This document shows positions 26,043 to 52,824 of a stretch of 52,824 bases of DNA, one piece after another. The notes under the pieces are model-generated. The model was not told where the DNA came from. It ran no database searches and saw nothing but the letters and a program-made list of their open reading frames with translations. How positions within the stretch are numbered: the stretch's first letter is position 1; every line of letters begins with the position of its first letter. The translations under genes were made by a program, and so were the position numbers. Source of the stretch: a virus; IMG/VR virus record IMGVR_UViG_3300031576_000058, positions 1 to 52,824 of that record, one strand, 5' to 3'.

Positions 26043-26153
26043 ATGAGGTTCTTCGTGATCGACAATGTCATCTGGATTCGCTTCATGGACGCGAAGCAGC
26101 GCGGGGTGCGCTATCCCAGGTGGAAGATCGTGTGGCGATGGATTTTTGGCTAA
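26043..26153 (+). CDS. 36-residue basic peptide
   Basis: ATG 26043 after GGAGGATGAGCA. Reads [14 protein letters not shown] then a basic middle and aromatic end VWRWIFG. Strong ribosome site; looks translated. Amphipathic and Trp-rich; could be membrane-active. Function unknown. Confidence 0.5.
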
Positions 26154-26163
26154 GGATGGGGCA

Positions 26164-26619
26164 ATGCTAACTATACGCCCATGGCTAACCCGGTATAAGG
26201 CGACCCTTCTTTTCCTGCACTGTGCGAACTGCGGCAGTCCTTTCGCCACGCATCATTCCGAACTTAGAAGGGGTGGCGGGATATTCTGTGGCCACAAATG
26301 CCGGGCCGAATTTCGATCTCGGGTGTGTAAAAAGCAGTTTTGGTCCAGGGTTATCAAGACAGACCATTGCTGGATCTGGACAGGTGCGCTGACTGGTCCG
26401 GGATACGGCGAATTTACCTTGAACGGCAAAACCCGATCAACCCACATCTGGGTTTGGGAGCATTTCAACGGACCAAGACCAGAGGGCATGAGATTATTTG
26501 TATGCCACCGTTGCGACAATCGTTCATGCGTGAGACCGGATCACCTGTTTCTTGGCACTCCGAGCGACAACGTGCAAGATGCTGTCCGAAAAGGAAGAAT
26601 GGGGAGGAAAAGACAATGA
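26164..26619 (+). CDS. HNH homing endonuclease
   Basis: 151 residues from ATG 26164. N-terminal zinc finger-like segment (CANCGSPF to CGHKC), then the HNH core: [48 protein letters not shown] split over two strands, and [12 protein letters not shown]. This is the HNH_3/AP2-type homing endonuclease layout. Lower G+C than flanks marks it as a recent insertion between an early small gene and the annealing-protein candidate. Confidence 0.82.
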
Positions 26620-29560: not shown

Positions 29561-32380
29561 ATGAGCCGGATCATCCTTGGCAAGTCCTGGGAGTCACAGC
29601 CGAAGAACATCTCCCTAGACCTCGATCTGTTGCTCCGGACCAGGATGCTTATCCAGGCCAACTCAGGAGGAGGGAAGAGTTATCTCCTCCGCCGCCTCGC
29701 CGAGCAGCTCTTCGGGAAGGTCCCAGTCCTCATCGTGGACCCCGAAGGCGAGTTCGCCACCCTCCGAGAAAAATATGGGTATGTCCTAGCTGGGAAAGGC
29801 GGGGAGACCCCGGCCGATCCTCGGTCGGCTGGGTTACTGGCCCAAAGGCTTCTCGAGCTCCAGGCCTCGGCGGTATGCGACCTCTACGAGATGAAGTTGT
29901 CTGACCGGCACCGATGGGTCCGGACCTTCTTGGAAGCGGTGATCGACGCCCCGAAGAAGCTCTGGCGGCCAACCGTGGTGGTCGTGGACGAGGCCCACAC
30001 ATTTTGCATGGACCCAGAAACAGAAATTCTGACAAGTTCCGGATGGAGAGGGATAACCGAAGTAGAAGTTGGGGATCGAGTTGTTGCCTTCGATCCAACG
30101 AGTGAATTATACCGAGAAGAACCTATTCGTCGGATCATAGTTCAAAATCACTCTGGGCCGATGGTAGGACTCACAAGCGATGGGATTGATGCGCTTGTTA
30201 CTCCAGACCACCGAGTAGTTTTGCGTCGAATGCAGCGGGCACAATATCAGGGTCGAAAAGAAAGCGTCAAGAAAAGGCGACCCAAATACCTCACCTTATA
30301 TCCATGGACTTTTTGTCACGCCTCTTCGGTTCCTCATCACGCATATATTCCAATCGGTGGAGGACCGGATGGTCCCGGTCTAGCAAGACTTTCAACGGAT
30401 CTAAGCCGCCTATTGGGCTGGGTTATTACGGATGGGAGCTTTGTGGGGTCGTGCGGCGGCAAATACTTGCGCTATCTTTCGATTTCCCAATCGACCGCGA
30501 CTCTCAAAGCAGGAAGAAGGATGATTGCTGAGATGCAATCCTTGCTCAGTCGATTTGGCTCGCATTCGGTATATTCACGGCCAGAAAGGGAAAGTGTGCG
30601 TCCTGATCGCACCGTGAGACACTCTCAGAGCAAAGAATTCTATCTCGGAGAGCGATTATCGCGTCTGGTGATGGGCTGGCTTGGTCCAGACATTCACCGA
30701 ATTCCCCGAGTCATTCTAAGCCAAGGGTCTAAGCATCAATTGCGAGCCCTATACCAAGGCCTCTTAGAGGGGGACGGAACCTCATACATGGGACGCTGGA
30801 CGACTTTTTATCCTGGGAAAAATGAGGGATTGGCTGACGATTTTCAGGAACTTGCAACAAGACTAGGAATCAGTACGACCAAGCGTTTTGTGTGGAGCAT
30901 AGGCCAATGGAGGGTCCTTATAAGCAAGCGACGTCACCACTATGTCCGGAAACCGAATTCCCATGTTTACTCTGGAATCGTCTGGGATATTACTGTTCCT
31001 TCAGGTGCTTTCGTAGCGAGGCGGCGAGGAAAGGTCTTTGTAACTGGAAATTCCCCCGAGAAAGGCCATGGGGAGTCGGAGGCGGCCGACGCCATGATCG
31101 GTCTGGCCACCCGGGGGAGGAAAAGGGGCTTCGCGGCCGTGTTCGCTACCCAGCGATTGGGGAAGCTCCGGAAGGACGTGGCGGCCGAGCTCCTCAACGT
31201 CTTGATCGGCCAGACCTTCATCGACATTGACCGGAAGCGGGCAGCCGAGGCCCTCGGTATCCCCCCGAACGAGCAGCGGCGCTTCTTCGACCAGATCAAG
31301 GTGATGGAGCCAGGAACATTCTGGGCCCTGGGCCGAGCCGTAGCGATCGAGCGGGTCCTCCTGAAGGTCGGGTCGGTGGAAACGACCCACCCGGAGCCAG
31401 GCTCCACAAAACATGCTGCGGCGCCCCCACCGCCCCCAGAGAAGGTCAAGGCCCTGCTGCCCAAGCTGCAGGATCTCCCAAAGGAGGCGGAGGATAAGGC
31501 GAGGACGGTAGCCGAGTTCCGGGCGGAGATCGGACAGTTGAAGCGGGAGCTGGCGGCGGCGAAACATACTGCGACTACGGTTCCACCATTGCAGCGTGAG
31601 CCACAAATCAGGGTAAAAGAAGTCAGGGTTCCGATGCTGAAGAAAGGCGATGTGGGCCGGATTGAGAAGGCCATTGCGTTCTTGGCAAAGGTTACAGATC
31701 GGATGGCCCGGGCTCAACAGGTTGTCGTGACCGAGTTGGGTCTGATGCGCGATGCGTTCAAGAAAGAGGCTGTAAAGCCCTATACAATCAGTGTGCCTCC
31801 ACCCACGAAACCAATACTTGACCAGCGCAGCCTCCACTTCAAGCAGCACGTTCGCAATGTGGTGGAAGGTGCGCGGCAACCACTGCGCATAGGTGATGAC
31901 TTCCACCCAAGAACCGTGGCTGGTTCCCTTCCCAGGGGAGAACAGATCAGCCTGACCGCCGTGGCGCAGTACCCAGAGGGCGTGGATCGTCAGCAGCTCT
32001 CCATTCTCACCGGCTACAAGCGGTCCAGCCGGGACTCCTACGTTCAGCGGCTCAAGGACCGAGGATTGGTGGGGGTCCGGGGTAACCGGATCATGGCCAC
32101 GGATGAGGGCCTCCTAGCATTGGGGTCAGATTTCGAGCCCCTTCCCACTGGCGAAGCTCTCCGGGACTACTGGATCCAGAAACTCCCCCAGGGGGAAAAG
32201 GCAGTCTTGCAGGTCTTATTGAAGGCCTATCCGGATTCGGTCGATCGGGATGCCATATGTGAGATGACCCAGTACCGCCGCTCCAGCCGTGATGCCTACC
32301 TGCAAAGACTCCGGGCCCGCCAACTCGTATCGGATGACGGGCCCAGAAGGGTTAAGGCGTCCCCGCTGCTTTTCGACTAG
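29561..32380 (+). CDS. HerA/FtsK-type ATPase with inserted intein
   Basis: 939 residues as translated; 590 after removal of the intein. Walker A ANSGGGKS at 33-40 and Walker B VVVVDEAH at 139-146; after the intein the ATPase resumes SPEKGHGESEAADAMIGLATRGRK, FAAVFATQRL and IDIDRKRAAEALGI, as in HerA/DUF87 translocases. C-terminal region is coiled coil plus two copies of a 34-residue winged-helix unit (804-837 and 890-923). Acts as a hexameric DNA pump in end processing, consistent with the annealing and exonuclease genes upstream. Last gene of the early operon, converging on the 32377 lipoprotein. Confidence 0.85.
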   Translation: MSRIILGKSWESQPKNISLDLDLLLRTRMLIQANSGGGKSYLLRRLAEQLFGKVPVLIVDPEGEFATLREKYGYVLAGKGGETPADPRSAGLLAQRLLELQASAVCDLYEMKLSDRHRWVRTFLEAVIDAPKKLWRPTVVVVDEAHTFCMDPETEILTSSGWRGITEVEVGDRVVAFDPTSELYREEPIRRIIVQNHSGPMVGLTSDGIDALVTPDHRVVLRRMQRAQYQGRKESVKKRRPKYLTLYPWTFCHASSVPHHAYIPIGGGPDGPGLARLSTDLSRLLGWVITDGSFVGSCGGKYLRYLSISQSTATLKAGRRMIAEMQSLLSRFGSHSVYSRPERESVRPDRTVRHSQSKEFYLGERLSRLVMGWLGPDIHRIPRVILSQGSKHQLRALYQGLLEGDGTSYMGRWTTFYPGKNEGLADDFQELATRLGISTTKRFVWSIGQWRVLISKRRHHYVRKPNSHVYSGIVWDITVPSGAFVARRRGKVFVTGNSPEKGHGESEAADAMIGLATRGRKRGFAAVFATQRLGKLRKDVAAELLNVLIGQTFIDIDRKRAAEALGIPPNEQRRFFDQIKVMEPGTFWALGRAVAIERVLLKVGSVETTHPEPGSTKHAAAPPPPPEKVKALLPKLQDLPKEAEDKARTVAEFRAEIGQLKRELAAAKHTATTVPPLQREPQIRVKEVRVPMLKKGDVGRIEKAIAFLAKVTDRMARAQQVVVTELGLMRDAFKKEAVKPYTISVPPPTKPILDQRSLHFKQHVRNVVEGARQPLRIGDDFHPRTVAGSLPRGEQISLTAVAQYPEGVDRQQLSILTGYKRSSRDSYVQRLKDRGLVGVRGNRIMATDEGLLALGSDFEPLPTGEALRDYWIQKLPQGEKAVLQVLLKAYPDSVDRDAICEMTQYRRSSRDAYLQRLRARQLVSDDGPRRVKASPLLFD
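30005..31051 (+). other. Intein (LAGLIDADG) in HerA-like ATPase
   Basis: Residues 149-497 of the ATPase frame. Starts Cys (CMDPETEILTSSG: splicing block A), block B TPDH at 214-217, LAGLIDADG-type motifs LLGWVITDG (284-292) and YQGLLEGDG (398-406), block F VWDITVPSGAF, end VTGN followed by Ser+1. Penultimate residue is Gly rather than the usual His. Removing it restores HTF-SPEKG of the ATPase. Lower G+C than the host gene indicates recent transfer. The insertion point is two residues after the DEAH box. Confidence 0.9.
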
Positions 32381-33715: not shown

Positions 33716-33746
33716 ACTATATACCAGTATATATCGAGAATGTCAA
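33716..33746 (-). promoter_or_regulatory. Strong sigma-70-type promoter, copy B
   Basis: Minus strand TTGACA (33746-33741) overlapping the TGA stop of the giant gene. TGG then TATATA at 17-base spacing and TATAGT at 19 (33721-33716). An extended -10 TG is present. Transcription start would fall ~7 bases on, just ahead of the RNA switch. Confidence 0.75.
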
Positions 33747-36700
33747 GGCCTTGCTGGCATCATCTTCCTGAAGACCTTGGGTCCCTCATGGATGCGCCGT
33801 TCCGCCCTCGGGATCTGGGATTCACGGAGTCGTGGTCTCAGACGGTTTCGGATATCCCGGCTGGTGATCGGAAACTCGGGATAGAGGGCGTTCCATCGGT
33901 CAATGTCGTCCTTGCCTGGGCTGGTCTCCAAGACCACATCGGCCCCTTCGAGGCGCTGTTGCGCCCGGAGCGACACGACCCGGTCGATGACCGCATCCCG
34001 CCGCTTTCTGACCTCGACATAGGCTGACAGGATCATGTCCTGCTCCGAGGCCGTCAAGGACCGGAAGCCCGCCATGTTCAGGAGTACGTCCTTCAGATCC
34101 CCCTTGAACTTGAGCATCCCCTTGGGGTCCCGGAAGTCGTAGTCCCCCTCCCAGATTTGTCTGAGGCCTTCCGTCCAGCGGAGCGCCGGTGCCCGCTGTC
34201 TTAGAGCGGATATCAGACGTTTGGCTGGCTCTGGGACCACCCCCTTCTCCTCTCCAAGCGCAGCCTCTCCGCCAGCCAAGGCTAGGCTCCCCAGTGGTCC
34301 CAAGGCCACGTTGCCGATCGCCTCCGGGACGCTCTGGCCTCGCGGCACGTCCACCATCTGGACCGAGTAGGAGAAGTCGATGCCCAGCAGTCCCGGGAGG
34401 CCGTAGGCGATCAGGTTGGCGATCGTCTCCCCGTACTCTTCCTTGATGCGGTTGTAGAGTTCCAGGGTGATGTAGGCCCCGCCCGCAATGGCGATGAGGG
34501 GATTCAGTAGGCCCTTCATCCCACCAATGCCAATGTTGGCTCCCAGCCATTTGCCCGCCCCGACAAAATCCTTGTCGGCCAACAGGTCCGCGATCAGCTC
34601 GAGGTTCTTGATCTGAAAGCGCCGGAACTGGAAGATCGTGGATTTGACCGGAGCGGTCAGGCCTGTGGACATGGCCCGATAGAGCGCCCGTGGCTGGTCC
34701 GTCCGCAGTCCAAGGAACTGACTGTAGATGTTCCCGCGGAGGAAGGCGTATTCGGCTGCCTGGGCATCTTCCAGTCCCATCTTTCGCGCCTTCAGGTACA
34801 TGGTCAGGAAGGCGACCTCTTGGTTGAAGGTCTCAGGGGCTAAGCCCCGCAGTTGCTCGCGGAACCTCGCCATCTTGAATCTCTTCAATGGCCCCGCCTC
34901 TCCGACAAACTTCCCGCCGGCGAGGAACCGGACCCCGTGCTTCTCCAGAAGATCCTTGCCGATCAGCTCTTCGCCGCTCTCAAGGGTCACCTTCCCCAGG
35001 TAGAGCCGCCGACCATTCACAAACTCCCTCGTGCTGACGATCGGCCAAAGCGTCTGGAACGTCTGGAGGCGGTTCAGGAAGTGGAATCGCGGGCTCAGGT
35101 TCAGGAAGAGATACGCGGACAGAGATTTCGCGCGGTTGGTCCACCGTTCCAAGGCGAACGGCCGGTGGAAATGGCTAAGACCTGGGATCCGCTCCAAGAG
35201 GTTGTCGAGCATCTGCGAGGTCTGGCTCTTGTAGCCCCACAGGATATTCAGGTTTGCCTCAAGCTCATCGGCCAGCGTCGATCGCCCCGATTTTCGCACC
35301 TTGTCGATCAGGGGTTGGACGGCTCGCCTCGCGTCGGTGACGTGAATCCACCGGGTCAGGCCATGGTTGTAGATACCCAAGACCCACTCGAGGTCTTGGC
35401 TGAATCCCGGATAGCCCTCCCGGTGCCGCAGCGACCCCCACCACTTCTTCTTGCCCTCCTTGGTGCCGATGACTCCCTTAAAGGCCCAGGACACATCTTC
35501 GGCCCCAATATCCATGGCGTCGGCGATCCGGTTAATGACCATCCACCGCCTCGGCCTCGACACCCGGACTACGTCAGGGTTCACAAACTGCCGCTGATCC
35601 ACCACATACATCTCCGCCGTCCGCTCGGGGTTGCTGGCATGGTCCTCGTTGATTCTCTTCATAGCCTCGTACCGAGTCCGGGCCGTCCCGATAAAGGCCA
35701 TCCCCTCGTCGGCCTTGACGAAGATCCGGAAGTCGCCGGGGAAGATATGGGGCAAATACTTGTCGATCCCCCACTCGTCCGGGATCATGCGCTGCAGCTC
35801 TTCGGTCGTCTCCTTGGCGACCCGTTTCCGGACCTCCTCGAGCTGTTCCGCCGTCCGACGATGTTTGCCTTCCGGAATCGGGATCTCCTCCCGGACCTTC
35901 GTGTCGATCCGGTCCTCGACCGCGGGCCTCAGATCTTCGCGCATCCGCTCGATGATGAGCTGCCGGTCCGCATCGAACTTCTCCCGGAAATACCGGGCCG
36001 CCTCCTTGGTCTCCTGGGAGATGTCGGTCCGGGCCTCGATCGCCTCAATATCCTTACCCTCGAAGATGTCCCAAAAGACCTCCCCGGTCTTCCCGAAGTC
36101 GGCCTTCGGGATCCGCCCTGTGGCCTCCAGGTCGGTCTCCATCCGGCGACCGAACGCGATGCGCTGGTTGATCTCGCCCAGGTTCAAGGCCCGGATCGCG
36201 GCGGCCGCTTCTGGACCGTAGCGCCGAAGCACGTTCGAGGGGGTGCCGATCATCGAGAGCCAGCCGTAGTCCTTCATCGGCTTCTGGATGATGACCTTGG
36301 GTCCCTGGCCGGAGACCCGCCGCTCCTCTGCCCTGCCCTCGCGCTGCCATTCTTGGAGCCGCTCAGCCCATTCGTCTTGGGGTTCCTCACCGAAGTCGGC
36401 TTTCGGCTCAGAGACGCGGTAGGCAGGCCGAGCCCCCTCTGCCGCCCGCAGCCTCAGACGCTCGCCCTCCCTGAGCCTTCCCAGTGTATAGCCACCTTCA
36501 AGCACGCCGATGCCGTGATCCAGGATAACCCCCCCGTCGATGTACCTCTGGGCCGCCCGCTTGATTGCCTCTGCTTGTTCGCCCTTGTATTCCGGATAGA
36601 AGCTCAAGGCCGATGTAGCCCCGTATTCTCGTTGCCGAGCCCGCACATAGTCCACTAACTCTCTCCCCCGGAGGAACTTGGCCACCGGCACATCCTCGAT

Positions 36701-39700
36701 CGCCCGTGAAGTAATACCGGAGCGGTATATAAGCGAAACGTAGCCCTCGGGTGTCTTGAGCTGCTGCCCGATGCGGACGAGGTGCTGCCCGTCCTCCACC
36801 CGGACCCCGATGAGATCGTGGGCCAGCTCCGGCACGAAGAATTGCGCCTCGCCCGCAGGAATCCGATGGGCTTTTTCGGCTACCCCTTTCGGAGTGGTCC
36901 TGAGAACGGTATAGACGCCAGAATCGATGATGACGTGGCCTTTCATGCCGGGGAGCATTGCACTAAAGGTCTCCGTCAACTGAACATCGCTATCAGAGGC
37001 AGAGGTCATCCCGCTCGGGTGGTTGTGGAGCATCCAGTACCCATCCGCCCCGAGCCGCTCCATCCGTCGCTTCATGCCCTCGATGGTTCTCGCAACATGC
37101 GTCTCCCTGGGCCCCCTTTGCAGAAAAGCCTCAGCCGACCCCGGCATCCGTGACGTAATACCCTCATGGGCGACGATCTTTCCTTCCTTGACATAGAAGA
37201 TTCGTAGCGTCTCGAATTGCGGGTTGCGGAACACCTGGGCCAGCCCTGCGAGGTCCTGGGCCGTGTGGACCGTCTGGCCCCGGAGGTCCACCCGTCCCTT
37301 TTGGTACAGCTCCCGGGTAATTCCGATGCCGAGGATTCTGGCGCCGGCCGCACCGGGAATCCCACGGGGCAGCTTTCCGGAGACCGTAGAGGCCCCTTGG
37401 ACCGACTGCTCCACGTCCGCGATGGCCTCCTGCGCTCGGACTAGATCGGATTCGGGGGAGTCGGGCCGTCTTTGGTAGAACGGCTTGGGTAGCGGCTCCT
37501 CCACGCGAGTCGGTGTCGGCGCCTTGACCTCGGGTGCCTTCGGGGGGAACCGCTCCAAGAGCCGCCCGATTTCCTGCTCCGGGATATGGAAGAAGTTGCC
37601 GGCTGGAGAGTATTTGGCCCCATGGCGGAGGAGCTGGTCGCGCTGGGCCATCTTGGCGTTCTCGATCTTGATAAGGCCATCCTGGCGCTGCCGCAGCTCG
37701 TACTGGTCCGCCCCCTCCAGTGGCACACGATCGCCAGCCTTCAGGGCCTCCATGACCTGCTCTGGCGTCTCCAGCCGCTCGCGGCCCAGCTTGTGACCGA
37801 AGTTCTCCGCCAGCATCGGCATGGTCCCGCGCCTAATCTCGAGGCCGGAGATTTGCCGGTCACCGGCATTGAAGGTGACGTAGCTCCGCTTCGGCACCTC
37901 TCCAGCCGCACCGTATTGTCCAACCACCCTGGCCAAAGGTAAATACCTAGCAATCCGATCCATGTGGGGAGTGATGAGGCCCTGGAGGATCCCAAATCGG
38001 TGTCCGCTCTCGTCCTTGACTTCGTGGAGGACCAGTTGTGGTTGGAGTTCCGTGGACCGGACGACCTCGCCCCGGTACTTCCGGGTCTTGGCAAACTCCT
38101 CCGCCTCCTCCTGCTCTGCCAGCAACGCCTTTCGCTTCTCCCAAAATCTATCGAACGCTTCGTTCGACGCTTCGAGCGGCATGAACTGGAGATCCAGCAA
38201 GAAATCTTTCAAGCTGGCCACCGTGGGGTCTTTCGGCAGATCCCGGTATTCGATCATGCCCTCGCGGGTGATGCCTTTCGCTTCCATGGGGGAAGGAGTC
38301 GGAAGTGATGGTGGTGGAGCCTCTGGCAATTCCGGCGTTACGGCCTTTTCTATCTTGCCCAATGCCACCTTCATCCAGTCAGGTTGATCTACTAGAACGT
38401 GCCGAGGTGCTTCGTATGGGGTGGCCTCTCCAGGAGTGACCATCCCCTGCTGCACATCTTTCCACTGTGGGGCGTTGAACACCTCGCCTTGTGGCAGATT
38501 TTGCACTAGCTCCATAATCTGATCCCGGTAGCCTTGAGCGATGCGTCCAATAGCACTCCTCGGGATCATCATTCTGTCTGCCATTCCCTCAAAGCCCGTG
38601 TCTATCCCTGGCTCACCGGCAGCTTTCTTTCTCAACCGGGAAGTGGCTGAGAAGAGGTCCTTGTGGTTGGCGTCCGGGAAAATCACTCGGACTGATCCCT
38701 TCTTCCCACGACCGATGAAGATGCTTCTCGCCGGGACGGCCTCAATAGCCTTGGTCGGAGGTGCGAGTTCCGGCTGTACCGCTGTCGGTGGCCTCTCGAA
38801 CAGTGGCGTCTCCTCGACGGGACGCACCTCGGCACCTTCGGGGGCACGGATCGGCTCTCTTGGGACCTCGCGGGGCGGGGCAAAGGTCATCTGGCCGGGG
38901 GTGAACGGCTCTTCGCGGATGGTAGGTGCTACTGGAGAGACCACGGGCTGAGGAACCTCTCCCGCTCTTATTTCCTCAGCCGACGGAATGTTGAGCTTTG
39001 ATCTCACGGACCGGATCATGGTCCGTGCGTCCGAGAGACCAATGTTGTTAAAGCCAAACTCTGGCTTCATCTGATCGAATACTTGGGCAGCGACAAGACC
39101 CTGCCTACTCAACTCAGAGATTCTGTCGGAGAGTCCCAGCCTTTGAGAAAGGGCAAACTGTCTGTCAATCTCCTCTTGGATATAATCTGGAACGGACTTC
39201 CTTGTGGCTTCCTCTGGTATTTGGGCAGGAGCGGGGGCTACTGCTGGTGCCACAGGAGCCGCCGGTGGCGGCGTCACCAACGCCTCGAGCCGCTCCGCCT
39301 CTTGGTCTCGCGCCAACTCCTCGAGCGCTCCCGAGAACCGCTCAAAGCCCACTTCGGTCGGCTCAAGGCCGGTCTCGACGTACATATCCCTTGCCTCGTC
39401 GGCAGTGATCCCAGCCTTCAGCCGATCAAGTATTTCCAGGTAGAGCGGATTCTCCTTGTCGCGGCGGATCGCCGCCACGATCTGAGACGGGCTGGCGGCA
39501 ATGCCTTGGAGCTCTGGGAAGAGTGACTTGAAGCCACCGACTCTCCGGTATTCTCCTGGCTCCCCCACCAGCTTGCCGGTCGGTGTGGCCTCAGAGACTT
39601 CCTGGAGGGCATCGGCAAGGCCAGTAGCCTTCCCCTCAGCAATCACGTCGATTGGACTCTTTTCCACAGCCTTTTCCACTGGTGGGGCTGCAGGAGGAGC

Positions 39701-41416
39701 GACGACGGGTGTGGGAGCGGCTTTTGCCTCAACCGCAGTCGGAGCGACACTGAGCACCTGGGCGCCCTTGGGGGTCCGGACGAGTTCGGGCGGCCTGGCC
39801 TCCCTTCCCTCCTGTTGCGAAAAGGACACAGCGGAGGTCAAATTGTCAAAGTGGACCTTGGCCCGTCCATCTGCCCAGACCACCTGGTAGGATTGTCCTC
39901 GTGGAGGCCTCTCAGGTAGGGCTGTAGGCGCAGGGGTAGGTGTTGGGGCGGCTTCTGGCCTGATCGCCTCAGGAGCGGCTGGTGGGCGCACAGGAGGAGC
40001 AGGTTTGGGGGTCGGCTCAGGCGGATCGGCAGGCCTCGGAGGGGCTTCAGTCGGAGTTGGCCCTATGGCTGTCCGGATTCCGGGCGACGAGGCCTCTTGG
40101 GCCGTGGCAGCAGATTGGGTGGCGAATGTCGCCTTCTGCAAGAGTGCATCGTTGAAGTTCTTGAGCTTCTCGGGATCCTTGGCGAGGTCCTGTCGGATGC
40201 GCTTGATGGTGTGGAGCTTGTTTTCTTGGGCCCACACCTCCTCGACCAGATCAGCAACCGTGCGTTCAGGGCTTTTGGACAGCTTCGCCCGCCATGTCTT
40301 GACTCCCTCACGGATCACGCTTGGGCGTGGCCCCTCCACCTGACGCCCAAAGAGCCCCAGCATCCCGATATGGAAGTCCCTCTCGAATGACTCGGCGTCC
40401 CGCTGCGAGTAGCCCATGTCGAGCAGGATGTGCTTGGCCGTGGCTCCCACCGCGATAAACGGCGAGGCCATGAGCCGCGTCCCTAGATCAAGCGCCTGCC
40501 AGGCCCAGATGAACGGTGTCCATCCGGCCCGCCGGATCCGGTAGGTAAACTCGTCCTCGTTCGGATAGCGGGGCATCTTGTTCGGGTCGATCGTGAAGGC
40601 TGGGCTTTCGGCAATGACTTGCAGGGTCTCGCGGATACCGCGGAGGCCCGGGCCGGCCGCTTCGGGCGGGATCTCGACCCCGGGCACCCCTTCAACGGCA
40701 CCGACGACATATGGCACTCCACGAGGTTCTTCCTGGGGTGCTGGAATAACCGTCCTTGTTCCACGACCCGGGGTCGGTGGAATCCCGAATGGATAGGCGG
40801 CCCGGAGGTCCTCCTCAGCCGCCAGATCAGGGGTTGGCGCCGGCACCATGCCGGGGATCCGCCCCATTTCTTCCCCGGTGGGGAGCGAGGCTATGCCGCG
40901 CTTTCCTGCCTCAAGCTGTCGGCCTACAGCCGCTTTGATGCGATCAAGGACAGATGGCTTCGGCGCGTCGGCGAAGGCCTGCTTGATAGAGTCTGTAGTC
41001 GTTTTCTTTTGGGACGGTTCGGTGAAGGCTTTGCGGATCTGATCGGACGTAATCTTTTTGGCTACGGTTCCTTCGGCCGCCTCTGCCTCTCTGGGCGAGA
41101 GGAGATTCAACATGTCCTTCATCCACGGCAGCTTGAATCGCTCTGGTTGGGGTTCGGGCTCAAAGGATGGGATGGGAAGATCGGCGCCTTCGTACTCTTT
41201 TATATTTGATGGGATAGTGAAGGCTGGAGGCTCGGCCTGCTGTTCGCCGCCGTTGCCACCATTGGGCTCAAGGAGGGTAAGGGGAGGCTCAGTGCTTGAA
41301 CGGGGTAATGCTTTGTAGCCAGGACCCAGAGAGCGCCGAAACTTCTCATAGAGAGCTTCCTCACCATGCTCCTCCGAGAAGAGGGACCGGAGGTGATCGG
41401 CGGTAATCTTGGCCAT
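33743..41416 (-). CDS. Giant polyvalent/internal virion protein with JAMM/RadC-like domain
   Basis: 2557 residues. The N-terminal third is Pro-rich linkers between small domains and repeats a short K-I-T-x-D-x-[IL]-R-x-[AL]-F motif at residues 4-13, 122-131 and 140-148. At 1464-1477 is HNHPSGMTSASDSD, an exact H-x-H-x7-S-x2-D metal site of JAMM/RadC-like peptidases, preceded by RETHVARTIEGM and GYWML. The C-terminal ~900 residues are charged helices and hydrophobic stretches (LAYAIAGGAYITLEL region), like the membrane-spanning ends of large ejected phage proteins. Likely packaged and injected to process or bind host proteins. Confidence 0.82.
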   Translation of the reverse strand: MAKITADHLRSLFSEEHGEEALYEKFRRSLGPGYKALPRSSTEPPLTLLEPNGGNGGEQQAEPPAFTIPSNIKEYEGADLPIPSFEPEPQPERFKLPWMKDMLNLLSPREAEAAEGTVAKKITSDQIRKAFTEPSQKKTTTDSIKQAFADAPKPSVLDRIKAAVGRQLEAGKRGIASLPTGEEMGRIPGMVPAPTPDLAAEEDLRAAYPFGIPPTPGRGTRTVIPAPQEEPRGVPYVVGAVEGVPGVEIPPEAAGPGLRGIRETLQVIAESPAFTIDPNKMPRYPNEDEFTYRIRRAGWTPFIWAWQALDLGTRLMASPFIAVGATAKHILLDMGYSQRDAESFERDFHIGMLGLFGRQVEGPRPSVIREGVKTWRAKLSKSPERTVADLVEEVWAQENKLHTIKRIRQDLAKDPEKLKNFNDALLQKATFATQSAATAQEASSPGIRTAIGPTPTEAPPRPADPPEPTPKPAPPVRPPAAPEAIRPEAAPTPTPAPTALPERPPRGQSYQVVWADGRAKVHFDNLTSAVSFSQQEGREARPPELVRTPKGAQVLSVAPTAVEAKAAPTPVVAPPAAPPVEKAVEKSPIDVIAEGKATGLADALQEVSEATPTGKLVGEPGEYRRVGGFKSLFPELQGIAASPSQIVAAIRRDKENPLYLEILDRLKAGITADEARDMYVETGLEPTEVGFERFSGALEELARDQEAERLEALVTPPPAAPVAPAVAPAPAQIPEEATRKSVPDYIQEEIDRQFALSQRLGLSDRISELSRQGLVAAQVFDQMKPEFGFNNIGLSDARTMIRSVRSKLNIPSAEEIRAGEVPQPVVSPVAPTIREEPFTPGQMTFAPPREVPREPIRAPEGAEVRPVEETPLFERPPTAVQPELAPPTKAIEAVPARSIFIGRGKKGSVRVIFPDANHKDLFSATSRLRKKAAGEPGIDTGFEGMADRMMIPRSAIGRIAQGYRDQIMELVQNLPQGEVFNAPQWKDVQQGMVTPGEATPYEAPRHVLVDQPDWMKVALGKIEKAVTPELPEAPPPSLPTPSPMEAKGITREGMIEYRDLPKDPTVASLKDFLLDLQFMPLEASNEAFDRFWEKRKALLAEQEEAEEFAKTRKYRGEVVRSTELQPQLVLHEVKDESGHRFGILQGLITPHMDRIARYLPLARVVGQYGAAGEVPKRSYVTFNAGDRQISGLEIRRGTMPMLAENFGHKLGRERLETPEQVMEALKAGDRVPLEGADQYELRQRQDGLIKIENAKMAQRDQLLRHGAKYSPAGNFFHIPEQEIGRLLERFPPKAPEVKAPTPTRVEEPLPKPFYQRRPDSPESDLVRAQEAIADVEQSVQGASTVSGKLPRGIPGAAGARILGIGITRELYQKGRVDLRGQTVHTAQDLAGLAQVFRNPQFETLRIFYVKEGKIVAHEGITSRMPGSAEAFLQRGPRETHVARTIEGMKRRMERLGADGYWMLHNHPSGMTSASDSDVQLTETFSAMLPGMKGHVIIDSGVYTVLRTTPKGVAEKAHRIPAGEAQFFVPELAHDLIGVRVEDGQHLVRIGQQLKTPEGYVSLIYRSGITSRAIEDVPVAKFLRGRELVDYVRARQREYGATSALSFYPEYKGEQAEAIKRAAQRYIDGGVILDHGIGVLEGGYTLGRLREGERLRLRAAEGARPAYRVSEPKADFGEEPQDEWAERLQEWQREGRAEERRVSGQGPKVIIQKPMKDYGWLSMIGTPSNVLRRYGPEAAAAIRALNLGEINQRIAFGRRMETDLEATGRIPKADFGKTGEVFWDIFEGKDIEAIEARTDISQETKEAARYFREKFDADRQLIIERMREDLRPAVEDRIDTKVREEIPIPEGKHRRTAEQLEEVRKRVAKETTEELQRMIPDEWGIDKYLPHIFPGDFRIFVKADEGMAFIGTARTRYEAMKRINEDHASNPERTAEMYVVDQRQFVNPDVVRVSRPRRWMVINRIADAMDIGAEDVSWAFKGVIGTKEGKKKWWGSLRHREGYPGFSQDLEWVLGIYNHGLTRWIHVTDARRAVQPLIDKVRKSGRSTLADELEANLNILWGYKSQTSQMLDNLLERIPGLSHFHRPFALERWTNRAKSLSAYLFLNLSPRFHFLNRLQTFQTLWPIVSTREFVNGRRLYLGKVTLESGEELIGKDLLEKHGVRFLAGGKFVGEAGPLKRFKMARFREQLRGLAPETFNQEVAFLTMYLKARKMGLEDAQAAEYAFLRGNIYSQFLGLRTDQPRALYRAMSTGLTAPVKSTIFQFRRFQIKNLELIADLLADKDFVGAGKWLGANIGIGGMKGLLNPLIAIAGGAYITLELYNRIKEEYGETIANLIAYGLPGLLGIDFSYSVQMVDVPRGQSVPEAIGNVALGPLGSLALAGGEAALGEEKGVVPEPAKRLISALRQRAPALRWTEGLRQIWEGDYDFRDPKGMLKFKGDLKDVLLNMAGFRSLTASEQDMILSAYVEVRKRRDAVIDRVVSLRAQQRLEGADVVLETSPGKDDIDRWNALYPEFPITSRDIRNRLRPRLRESQIPRAERRIHEGPKVFRKMMPARP

Positions 41417-49644: not shown

Positions 49645-50724
49645 CTAAACGTTAGATCTGTGAACGCGAACAGCGATCAATCCGTTATCCTGGGCGTTGA
49701 AGACGGCCTTGGTCACCTCGAGGATCGCCCCGATGGCAAAGCCGGTCTTGTTCGCATAGTCGAACGCCTGCTCCACCCACTCCGGCTTTTGACCCCAAGC
49801 GTAAGCACCAGCTTGGCGGCCGCAGAGCAGGTTTTCCGAGCCGTTCAGGTTCGAGGCTGATCCCCAGTTGGTAGTCACAGCCACGCGGGTACAGGACCGG
49901 ATAACCACCCCGTCATAGATCCCTTCCGCCCCGGTAAAGAGCGGGTTCTGGTTGCCGCGGACCTGCGCCTCACGCTGCGCCTGCGCCCAGTTGGGGTCCA
50001 AGGTCTTGAGATCGTGGAGCGAGTCCGGGCTGACCACGAGCAGGAAATACTCGCCGCCATCGATTTGCACCGGAAAGATCTGCGGGGTGGCCTTGCGGGC
50101 CACGGTCTTGGCCCTCGTGATGAGCGTCAAGGTCAAGATGTCGCCACTCTCGATTGTGGCTGTGGAGACCGCATCGCCTCCATAGACCGCCCGGGTCGGC
50201 GAAGTGGACAGCGCCGTAAAGATGCGGTTGTCGATAAACGCGGCGAGCCAGTCCTTGAGGAGCTGCTTCGCCGTCATGCGCTGACTGAAGGCGGTCCGGC
50301 GCTCGGACATTCGGCCCCTCAGCCGTACCGCGTTCCGGAACTGGTCGAGCGTGACGTTATCGCTGAAGAAGCTCACCGCCTCCTCGCTGCCCTCCAGGGT
50401 CGCATCACCTTGGATGCCGGCACCCGTGAGCTGTCTCGCCAGGGTAAATGTGATCGTATCGCCCGGATTGGCTTTCAGTTCCTTCTTCACCTGAATCACG
50501 CTGTTCGGACTCTCTTGCATGTACGGGCCCCAAAAGACCCGCTCCGGCAGTTCGATCCAGATATCCTCCGCCCACCGCTTGGCGGTTTCGGCGGCCCCAG
50601 CGGTCACCTCCGTATCGACACCGCCGACCATGGGCGGGACCAAGAGCACGAACAGGAACAGGGCCAGCCCCGCAAAGCCTCTGTTGGCCAGCCATAGACA
50701 CAATCGCACTTTCCAACTGGTCAT
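49645..50724 (-). CDS. Major capsid protein, N4-gp56 type, with hydrophobic N-terminus
   Basis: 359 residues. From residue 43 the chain follows the N4-gp56 capsid family: RWAEDIWIELPERVFWGPYM, VKKELKANPGDTITFTL, QLTGAGIQGDATLEGSEEAV and VRLRGRMSERRTAFSQRMTA, and later DPNWAQAQREAQVRGNQNPLFTGAEGIYDGVVI in pieces. Residues 1-42 are instead hydrophobic (LWLANRGFAGLALFLFVLLVPPM), resembling a signal anchor. The ATG at 50724 has AGGAGG upstream; the inner ATG at 50631 has none, so the hydrophobic start is real. Downstream of scaffold by ten bases. Confidence 0.85.
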   Translation of the reverse strand: MTSWKVRLCLWLANRGFAGLALFLFVLLVPPMVGGVDTEVTAGAAETAKRWAEDIWIELPERVFWGPYMQESPNSVIQVKKELKANPGDTITFTLARQLTGAGIQGDATLEGSEEAVSFFSDNVTLDQFRNAVRLRGRMSERRTAFSQRMTAKQLLKDWLAAFIDNRIFTALSTSPTRAVYGGDAVSTATIESGDILTLTLITRAKTVARKATPQIFPVQIDGGEYFLLVVSPDSLHDLKTLDPNWAQAQREAQVRGNQNPLFTGAEGIYDGVVIRSCTRVAVTTNWGSASNLNGSENLLCGRQAGAYAWGQKPEWVEQAFDYANKTGFAIGAILEVTKAVFNAQDNGLIAVRVHRSNV

Positions 50725-51875: not shown

Positions 51876-52824
51876 CTACGTGGCCAGGCCTCCGAGGAGA
51901 CCCGCCCTCGAGGTTGCTTGGTCCTGGACAGCATCCACCGCTTCGGGCGTGGCTGCCTGGACGAGTTTGGACGGCGCCCCCGGGGTCCCGCCGCCACCTG
52001 GGGCCGGAGGGGCCTCTGGACCTTGCTGGCCCTGCATAATCTGTCGGACCCGCTGCAGGACCCGCTGGCGATCCGGAATATCGGTCAGTTCGATGATGAT
52101 ATCCACCAAGGCCGGGGCCAACTGCGGCACCTTGTCAAGGAGTTCCATGAGCATCACCAAGCCGGCCGCTCGGGCCGTGGGCGTCGACGGGGAATCCGAG
52201 ATGGTCATGTCGTACTTCAGCGATGGGATGTCCCGCTCCACCGTCACGCGCCCGCGCTTCTCGTCGATCTTGCGCTGGTTGATCGTGACAAACGCCGTCC
52301 CCCCGGACTCCTCATCCAGCCTGAGCGTCATTTCCGAGGTGTAAATCTGCTGGACGCGCTTGGCCAGACGTTTCCCGAAGATCCGCCGTGATCGCCGGTA
52401 GTTATCAAACAGGCCAGTGCTCCCCACTTGCCCCTGCTGTTGCAGCCGAGCAATGGCGATGCCGGATTGCGCCTGGGACGGTTGCCCCTGGAGCGGGGCG
52501 TTCACGAGGCTGATCTCACGGATCTCCTGCTTGGAAATCTGATCCTGGGCCATAACCCATTGGGGCATTTGCGGGACCTCGACGACTTCCGGCTTGGAGT
52601 TGGGATTCTTCCGCCATCCTACATTCCCCGCCCCCGCCCCTTCCGTCAGGAACTCCGGATTCTCAAGGTCGGTTCGCATCGCCAGCCACCGGAGATTGCC
52701 GAACCTCACGATGTTGTCAATTACCGAACTCCGGCGCTTATTCACTTCTCGCTGGGGGTCCTTCAGGTTCCGGACCAAGCCGAAGATCTCATCCCCCTCC
52801 CAATACCCCAAGAAGGGAACGAAG
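51876..52824 (-). CDS. Portal protein, C-terminal part
   Basis: Continuation of the gene at 1-1190 across the circular join: residues ~353-668 of the joined protein. Contains FLGYWEGDEIFGLVRNLKDPQREVN, WRKNPNSKPEVVEVP and the coiled-coil near EIREISLVNAPLQGQPSQAQSG, typical of P22-type portals whose barrel is helical. Stop TAG at 51876. Its 3' end abuts the promoter of copy A. Confidence 0.88.
   Translation of the reverse strand, partial: FVPFLGYWEGDEIFGLVRNLKDPQREVNKRRSSVIDNIVRFGNLRWLAMRTDLENPEFLTEGAGAGNVGWRKNPNSKPEVVEVPQMPQWVMAQDQISKQEIREISLVNAPLQGQPSQAQSGIAIARLQQQGQVGSTGLFDNYRRSRRIFGKRLAKRVQQIYTSEMTLRLDEESGGTAFVTINQRKIDEKRGRVTVERDIPSLKYDMTISDSPSTPTARAAGLVMLMELLDKVPQLAPALVDIIIELTDIPDRQRVLQRVRQIMQGQQGPEAPPAPGGGGTPGAPSKLVQAATPEAVDAVQDQATSRAGLLGGLAT
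52693..52824. repeat. Terminal direct overlap, right copy
   Basis: Matches 1-132 apart from one base (52698 G versus 6 T). See left copy; unique circle length about 52,692 bases. Confidence 0.93.

Follow-up and report, generated by a model that had tools for sequence, protein, structure and literature searches.

The interrupted ATPase gene

We analyzed the DNA of IMG/VR record IMGVR_UViG_3300031576_000058, a stretch of 52,824 nt that is referred to in its entirety as the window. On its forward strand lies a gene for a HerA/DUF87-family ATPase that is interrupted by an intein, with the following features:

29561..32380 (+): whole gene of the ATPase precursor with its intein, 939 aa; open frame, DUF87 match with E=3.4e-10
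29561..30004 (+): N-extein, 148 aa; collinear with intein-free homologs
29657..29680 (+): Walker A, ANSGGGKS; read from the sequence and conserved in alignments
29975..29998 (+): Walker B, VVVVDEAH, the intein starting two residues on; D and E invariant in a 42-row alignment
30005..31051 (+): intein, 349 aa, between extein residues F148 and S149; homolog collinearity, end-to-end intein matches and structure match
30200..30211 (+): splicing block B, with TxxH in the form TPDH; T66 and H69 present in every row of a 23-row alignment
30383..30940 (+): endonuclease domain of the LAGLIDADG type, approximately intein residues 127–312; structural alignment to I-DmoI and match to LAGLIDADG_3
30416..30436 (+): LAGLIDADG motif 1, GWVITDG; ITDG invariant in six ATPase inteins
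30758..30778 (+): LAGLIDADG motif 2, GLLEGDG; D257 kept throughout the 23-row alignment
30980..31024 (+): splicing block F, VWDITVPSGAFVARR, with Asp at C2:4 and Arg339–Arg340; alignments
31034..31051 (+): splicing block G, VFVTGN, with penultimate Gly and terminal Asn; alignments
31052..32380 (+): C-extein, Ser at +1, 442 aa plus stop; collinearity with homologs

The intein at 30005–31051 is real. It forms precursor residues 149–497, begins with CMDPETEIL (Cys1, codon TGC at 30005–30007) and ends with VFVTGN (Asn349, codon AAT at 31049–31051), followed by the +1 Ser at 31052; a chance origin is excluded because the element has end-to-end matches (1–349) to known inteins as well as a structure match. 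A preliminary description of this DNA had placed a 349-residue LAGLIDADG intein just past DEAH, and every coordinate and residue that it gave was right.

In Pfam, the intein matched LAGLIDADG_3 (E=1e-9); matches to Hint_2 and to the NCBIfam N-terminal intein model lay below the cut-off. Because a phmmer search of the intein against PDB sequences returned zero matches, we examined its fold through an AlphaFold2 model computed from the 23-row alignment (pLDDT 93.2, pTM 0.91). The top structural matches of this model were endonuclease-bearing inteins, namely TliVMA (7qsu, Z 25.4 over 298 residues), PI-PfuI (1dq3, Z 23.3), PI-SceI (Z 20–22) and 6zgq (Z 20.8), and its pLDDT and the scores against 7qsu and 6zgq point to a Hint fold. 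Residues 127–312 alone matched I-DmoI with Z 15.8, and this alpha/beta fold, together with the acidic residue kept in both GWVITDG and GLLEGDG, identifies a two-motif LAGLIDADG endonuclease.

As a stand-in for the spliced window ATPase, we modelled L085, its nearest intein-free homolog (pLDDT 85.8, ATPase domain confident), and the best Foldseek matches of this model were HerA hexamer subunits (best E=3.1e-13). The HerA-like fold of L085, the Walker A and B motifs and the DUF87 match of the whole protein, which is above the Pfam cut-off, place the protein among the HerA/DUF87 ATPases. According to the L085 model, the C-extein contains the remaining ATPase domain, a coiled coil and helix-turn-helix-like C-terminal repeats. 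The protein is not the HerA equivalog of HerA–NurA repair (NCBIfam NF040819, 14.3 bits against a threshold of 970). We set aside the PHROG label 'terminase large subunit' (phrog_2666), since Pfam and the L085 fold indicate HerA; a packaging role for the window ATPase is nevertheless conceivable. The earlier proposal that the ATPase would be inactive until splicing is sound, given the position of the insertion, the L085 model and its Foldseek matches to HerA.

An ORF matching HNH_3 (E=7.6e-14) is located at 26065–26619, 3.4 kb upstream of the intein, as previously noted. HNH genes also occur near the intein-free ATPases of L085 and L093, and therefore nothing links the window HNH gene to the intein. 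Two neighbours of the ATPase gene match exonuclease PHROGs. A conserved ATPase neighbourhood was sought as evidence of recombination and was not found across 87 related loci; the suggestion that the intein gates recombination is not supported. Farther along, on the reverse strand of the window, an ORF of 2557 residues (33743–41416) resembles RadC/JAB over a stretch that falls slightly short of the Pfam cut-off; its product perhaps enters the host cell together with the phage DNA. The reverse strand also encodes a major capsid protein matching Phage_capsid_3 (49645–50724) and a P22-like portal protein cut by the window end (51876–52811). The phage is probably short-tailed and its record incomplete.

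Insertion site and splicing residues

Excision of the 349 codons restores DEAHTF/SPEKGHGESEA (the slash marks the insertion site), and L085, whose ATPase domain has 81% identity to that of the window, reads DEAHGF/APEKGHGESEA. The insertion is exact, with zero residues lost or doubled compared with intein-free homologs. The site was uninterrupted in all 160 homologs that we fetched (80 IMG/VR contigs and 80 genome contigs), and likewise in plasmid homologs of 43–45% identity. Absence of the intein from an ATPase as similar as that of L085 shows that it was gained or lost after that split, and L085 and L086 are candidate empty sites for the endonuclease. In the phylum of the sole bacterial MAG with a close homolog, represented by only three genomes, no intein was found.

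At the +1 position, 76 distinct viral homologs carried mainly Cys (54/76) or Ala (18/76), and among the 73 distinct homologs encoded on genome contigs, 69 had Ala. Because most viral homologs carry Cys there, the nucleophile needed by an intein is already on offer. Ser+1 was found only in the window protein and was absent from 149 distinct intein-free homologs, among which Ala, Ile, Gly or Val are tolerated at this site. The prevalence of Cys after the site in viral HerA-like homologs (window 29999–30004/31052–31054; L085–L244), against Ala in nearly all genome-contig homologs, might reflect either a role of the viral Cys of its own or a trace of past intein invasion.

With Cys1, block B TPDH, terminal N349 and Ser+1, the intein has the residues of class 1; in place of the penultimate His, which is usual but not obligatory in this class, it has Gly348. 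Cys1 was present in 85 of 85 distinct relatives. The penultimate residue could be read in 82 of these and was Gly in 79, His in two and Phe in one; this residue was not part of the search patterns, although the relatives were picked by similarity to the window intein. Every row of the 23-row alignment has Arg339 and Arg340, and our guess is that they stand in for the missing His. Class 3 inteins are without a position-1 nucleophile and have Trp at B12, Cys at F4 (C2:4) and Thr at G5 (PMC5050341, PMC7891396). The window intein has Val, Asp and Thr at these three positions, plus Cys1, and we therefore filed it as class 1. Asp also occupies C2:4 in four relatives (L257–L260, described below), and Cys does so in a fifth (L261), in terminase-nuclease inteins and in methylase inteins, with Cys1 retained in all. 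Accordingly, the clade holds both states of this class-distinguishing residue.

The preliminary description had suggested that the penultimate Gly, which is real, may make splicing slow or conditional. A regulatory intein of this kind, in which the response of splicing to redox, temperature or metal would time ATPase activation in infection, seems improbable to us. The insertion does make ATPase activity depend on splicing, conditional splicing has been published for other inteins (PMC6195587, PMC7360933), and the window intein differs from its five related inteins in having Ser rather than Cys at +1. However, the penultimate Gly is the family norm, and in a phage intein that has been tested it accompanies rapid splicing, which is slowed when Gly is changed to His (PMC5050341). 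Moreover, the patchy presence of the element, with all fetched homologs empty, is unlike that of a needed switch.

Related inteins and probable movement between phages

In tblastn searches, the intein matched end to end, at 24–29% identity, parts of a methylase on a Streptomyces plasmid and of three kinds of actinophage protein: DNA methylases, nucleotidyltransferases and portal proteins. Single-protein IMG/VR scans with the whole protein or the intein alone yielded no relatives, and a profile scan of IMG/VR recovered five inteins (L257–L261) that are 50–53% identical to the window intein and lie in HerA-like ATPases. Four of them occupy the exact site (EEAHEF/CPKE, DEADRF/CPQR, DESHKF/CPQE and DEAQRY/CPQK in L257–L260), and that of L261 is inserted four residues upstream (LEE/CQEFVPQ). 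All five have Cys at +1, compared with Ser in the window, and keep the splicing-block residues and LAGLIDADG acids of the window intein. A second IMG/VR scan, with a six-row profile, added zero members, and no copy above 60% identity was found, so that recent homing was not caught in the act. The DNA pattern DEAHxFC....T was also tried in IMG/VR and gave 78 stretches, nearly all in DEAD-type helicases and with zero inteins; it missed the true relatives because their Walker B reads EEAHEF, DEADRF, DESHKF, DEAQRY or LEE.

The next-closest inteins (L262–L271, 37–42%) follow a nuclease motif of the DPA type in terminase-like proteins. In a 30-row tree, these and the ATPase-site inteins formed one clade with support of 100/99, within which the order is unsure. 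Several other elements were observed in the course of these searches. A more distant relative in a terminase-like protein (L287:1752–2780; GFDELTHF/..TGN/S) has the same place relative to Walker B as the window intein. On the phage contig of L259, a portal-like protein (L386, G003:C1:15000–18500) also carries an intein-like insert, the second on this contig; the insert ends WCGN/S and thus again has a penultimate Gly. The methylase ShiLan gp65 (L246:601–1581), in which another, non-intein insertion has been described (PMC11855218), has an end-to-end match to the window intein that ends ITGN/S. A free-standing relative on a plasmid of Streptomyces sp. NBC_00987 (L252) has Gly as its first residue and ends in GS rather than GN; it is apparently a decayed intein.

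Pairwise identities among the six ATPase-site inteins are confined to 46–54%, whereas their ATPase domains share anywhere between 19 and 61%; between the window and L257, for example, the inteins are 50% and the ATPases 19% identical. Intein and extein identities were not significantly correlated (Mantel r 0.22, p 0.23), a test that with n=6 is weak on its own. The window capsid and portal proteins had no match in the other phage records, which number eight and are possibly fragments, and the phages of the five relatives are apparently unrelated to the window phage. Flat intein identity across diverse exteins, combined with the lack of shared capsid and portal proteins, indicates that the element travels separately from the gene in which it lies. 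As judged from these sequences, movement between lineages fits better than shared descent for the six inteins, and the endonuclease, which looks intact, and the conservation of the Walker B DNA are the likely means of spread.

The competing view, in which an intein of the common ATPase ancestor was inherited vertically and lost from most lineages, is quite improbable on this evidence. Four of the five relatives do share the exact site, and the ATPase-site and terminase-nuclease inteins do belong to one well-supported clade. However, the intein identity stays flat over the whole range of extein identities, one of the inteins lies four residues away from the common site, and the well-supported sister group lies in another protein family.

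Base composition gives no date for this movement. The intein has a G+C content of 49.7%, compared with 61% in each extein, and a GC3 of 0.44, compared with 0.73–0.78; in G+C it was the lowest of 1036 stretches of equal size. Low G+C had been read as recent entry, and the low value itself stands. However, all six inteins are below their own host gene in G+C and are only 46–54% identical to one another; low G+C is therefore a mark of separate history rather than a date.

A probable homing intein and its known counterparts

We consider it highly likely that the element is an apparently intact class 1 homing intein with a two-motif LAGLIDADG endonuclease, which sits in the catalytic loop after Walker B, spreads by homing and acts constitutively. 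Cys1 would attack the bond preceding the intein, Ser+1 would receive the N-extein, and Asn349 would cyclise without a penultimate His, which would free the ligated DEAHTF-SPEKG ATPase; the endonuclease would cut intein-free alleles at the site, and the element would thereby spread. The conserved residues suggest that the intein is probably splicing-competent and active, and we infer splicing, DNA cutting and a constitutive rather than regulated action. Of the preliminary description, the intein, its endonuclease and its position thus hold, whereas regulation, recent entry, gating of recombination and the HNH link are not supported; the intein resembles a selfish element that is mobile more than it does a switch, a role that is unproven.

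That the intein is degenerate and non-splicing, leaving a dead ATPase or split products, is very improbable. The missing penultimate His would fit this view, and splicing is a prediction from sequence and model, but the splicing blocks, both LAGLIDADG acids and the open frame are all kept, the same residues recur in the five relatives of about 50% identity, and Ser+1 is a usable nucleophile, although intein-free homologs can have Ala, Ile, Gly or Val at this position. A more speculative and rather improbable reading is that an intein lineage specialised on Walker B of HerA-like phage ATPases retargets between terminases and ATPases that differ widely, now has Asp at C2:4 in exchange for Cys, the position that sets class 3 chemistry apart from that of class 1, and delays ATPase activation in infection.

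The closest published parallel in position is that of the TerL1-e inteins of mycobacteriophage terminase, which are likewise phage inteins in the Walker B of a P-loop DNA-pump ATPase and of which a representative splices readily (PMC5050341); they differ in belonging to class 3 and lying in a terminase, whereas the window intein, with its Cys1 and with Asp at C2:4, is of class 1 and has a HerA-like host protein. The actinophage methylase inteins (ShiLan gp65, DRBy19 gp70 and Dorothy gp75) and that of the Streptomyces plasmid methylase align over all 349 residues and share Cys1, TxxH, LAGLIDADG and the TGN/S ending, but are only 28–29% identical to the window intein, lie in another extein and have Cys instead of Asp at C2:4. 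As judged from its published description, the Bethlehem gp51 intein is also a class 1 phage intein with a penultimate Gly and rapid splicing (PMC5050341); its extein is a recombination directionality factor (RDF), unlike the window ATPase. Inteins of the TliVMA/PI-SceI type (PDB 7qsu, 1vde) have a Hint fold with an inserted LAGLIDADG domain, as in the window, but show 15–20% identity and have other exteins. HerA translocases (PDB 4d2i, 9x1m) have the fold of L085, and the window protein matches DUF87; unlike them, it is a phage protein with a coiled coil and a helix-turn-helix-like C-terminus.

None of the papers searched connects inteins with DUF87, and this insertion site appears to be undescribed so far. 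The best reading is a new insertion site for a known kind of intein, for which the Walker B inteins of phage terminase are a precedent. The inteins of this small family share a site, and their similarity does not follow that of the ATPases that host them; they clearly exemplify how inteins move between phages that are apparently unrelated. The variation between Asp and Cys at C2:4 within one clade (100/99), in which Cys1 is constant, provides a natural series bearing on the relation between class 1 and class 3 splicing. Finally, a penultimate Gly in phage inteins should not be taken for impaired or conditional splicing.
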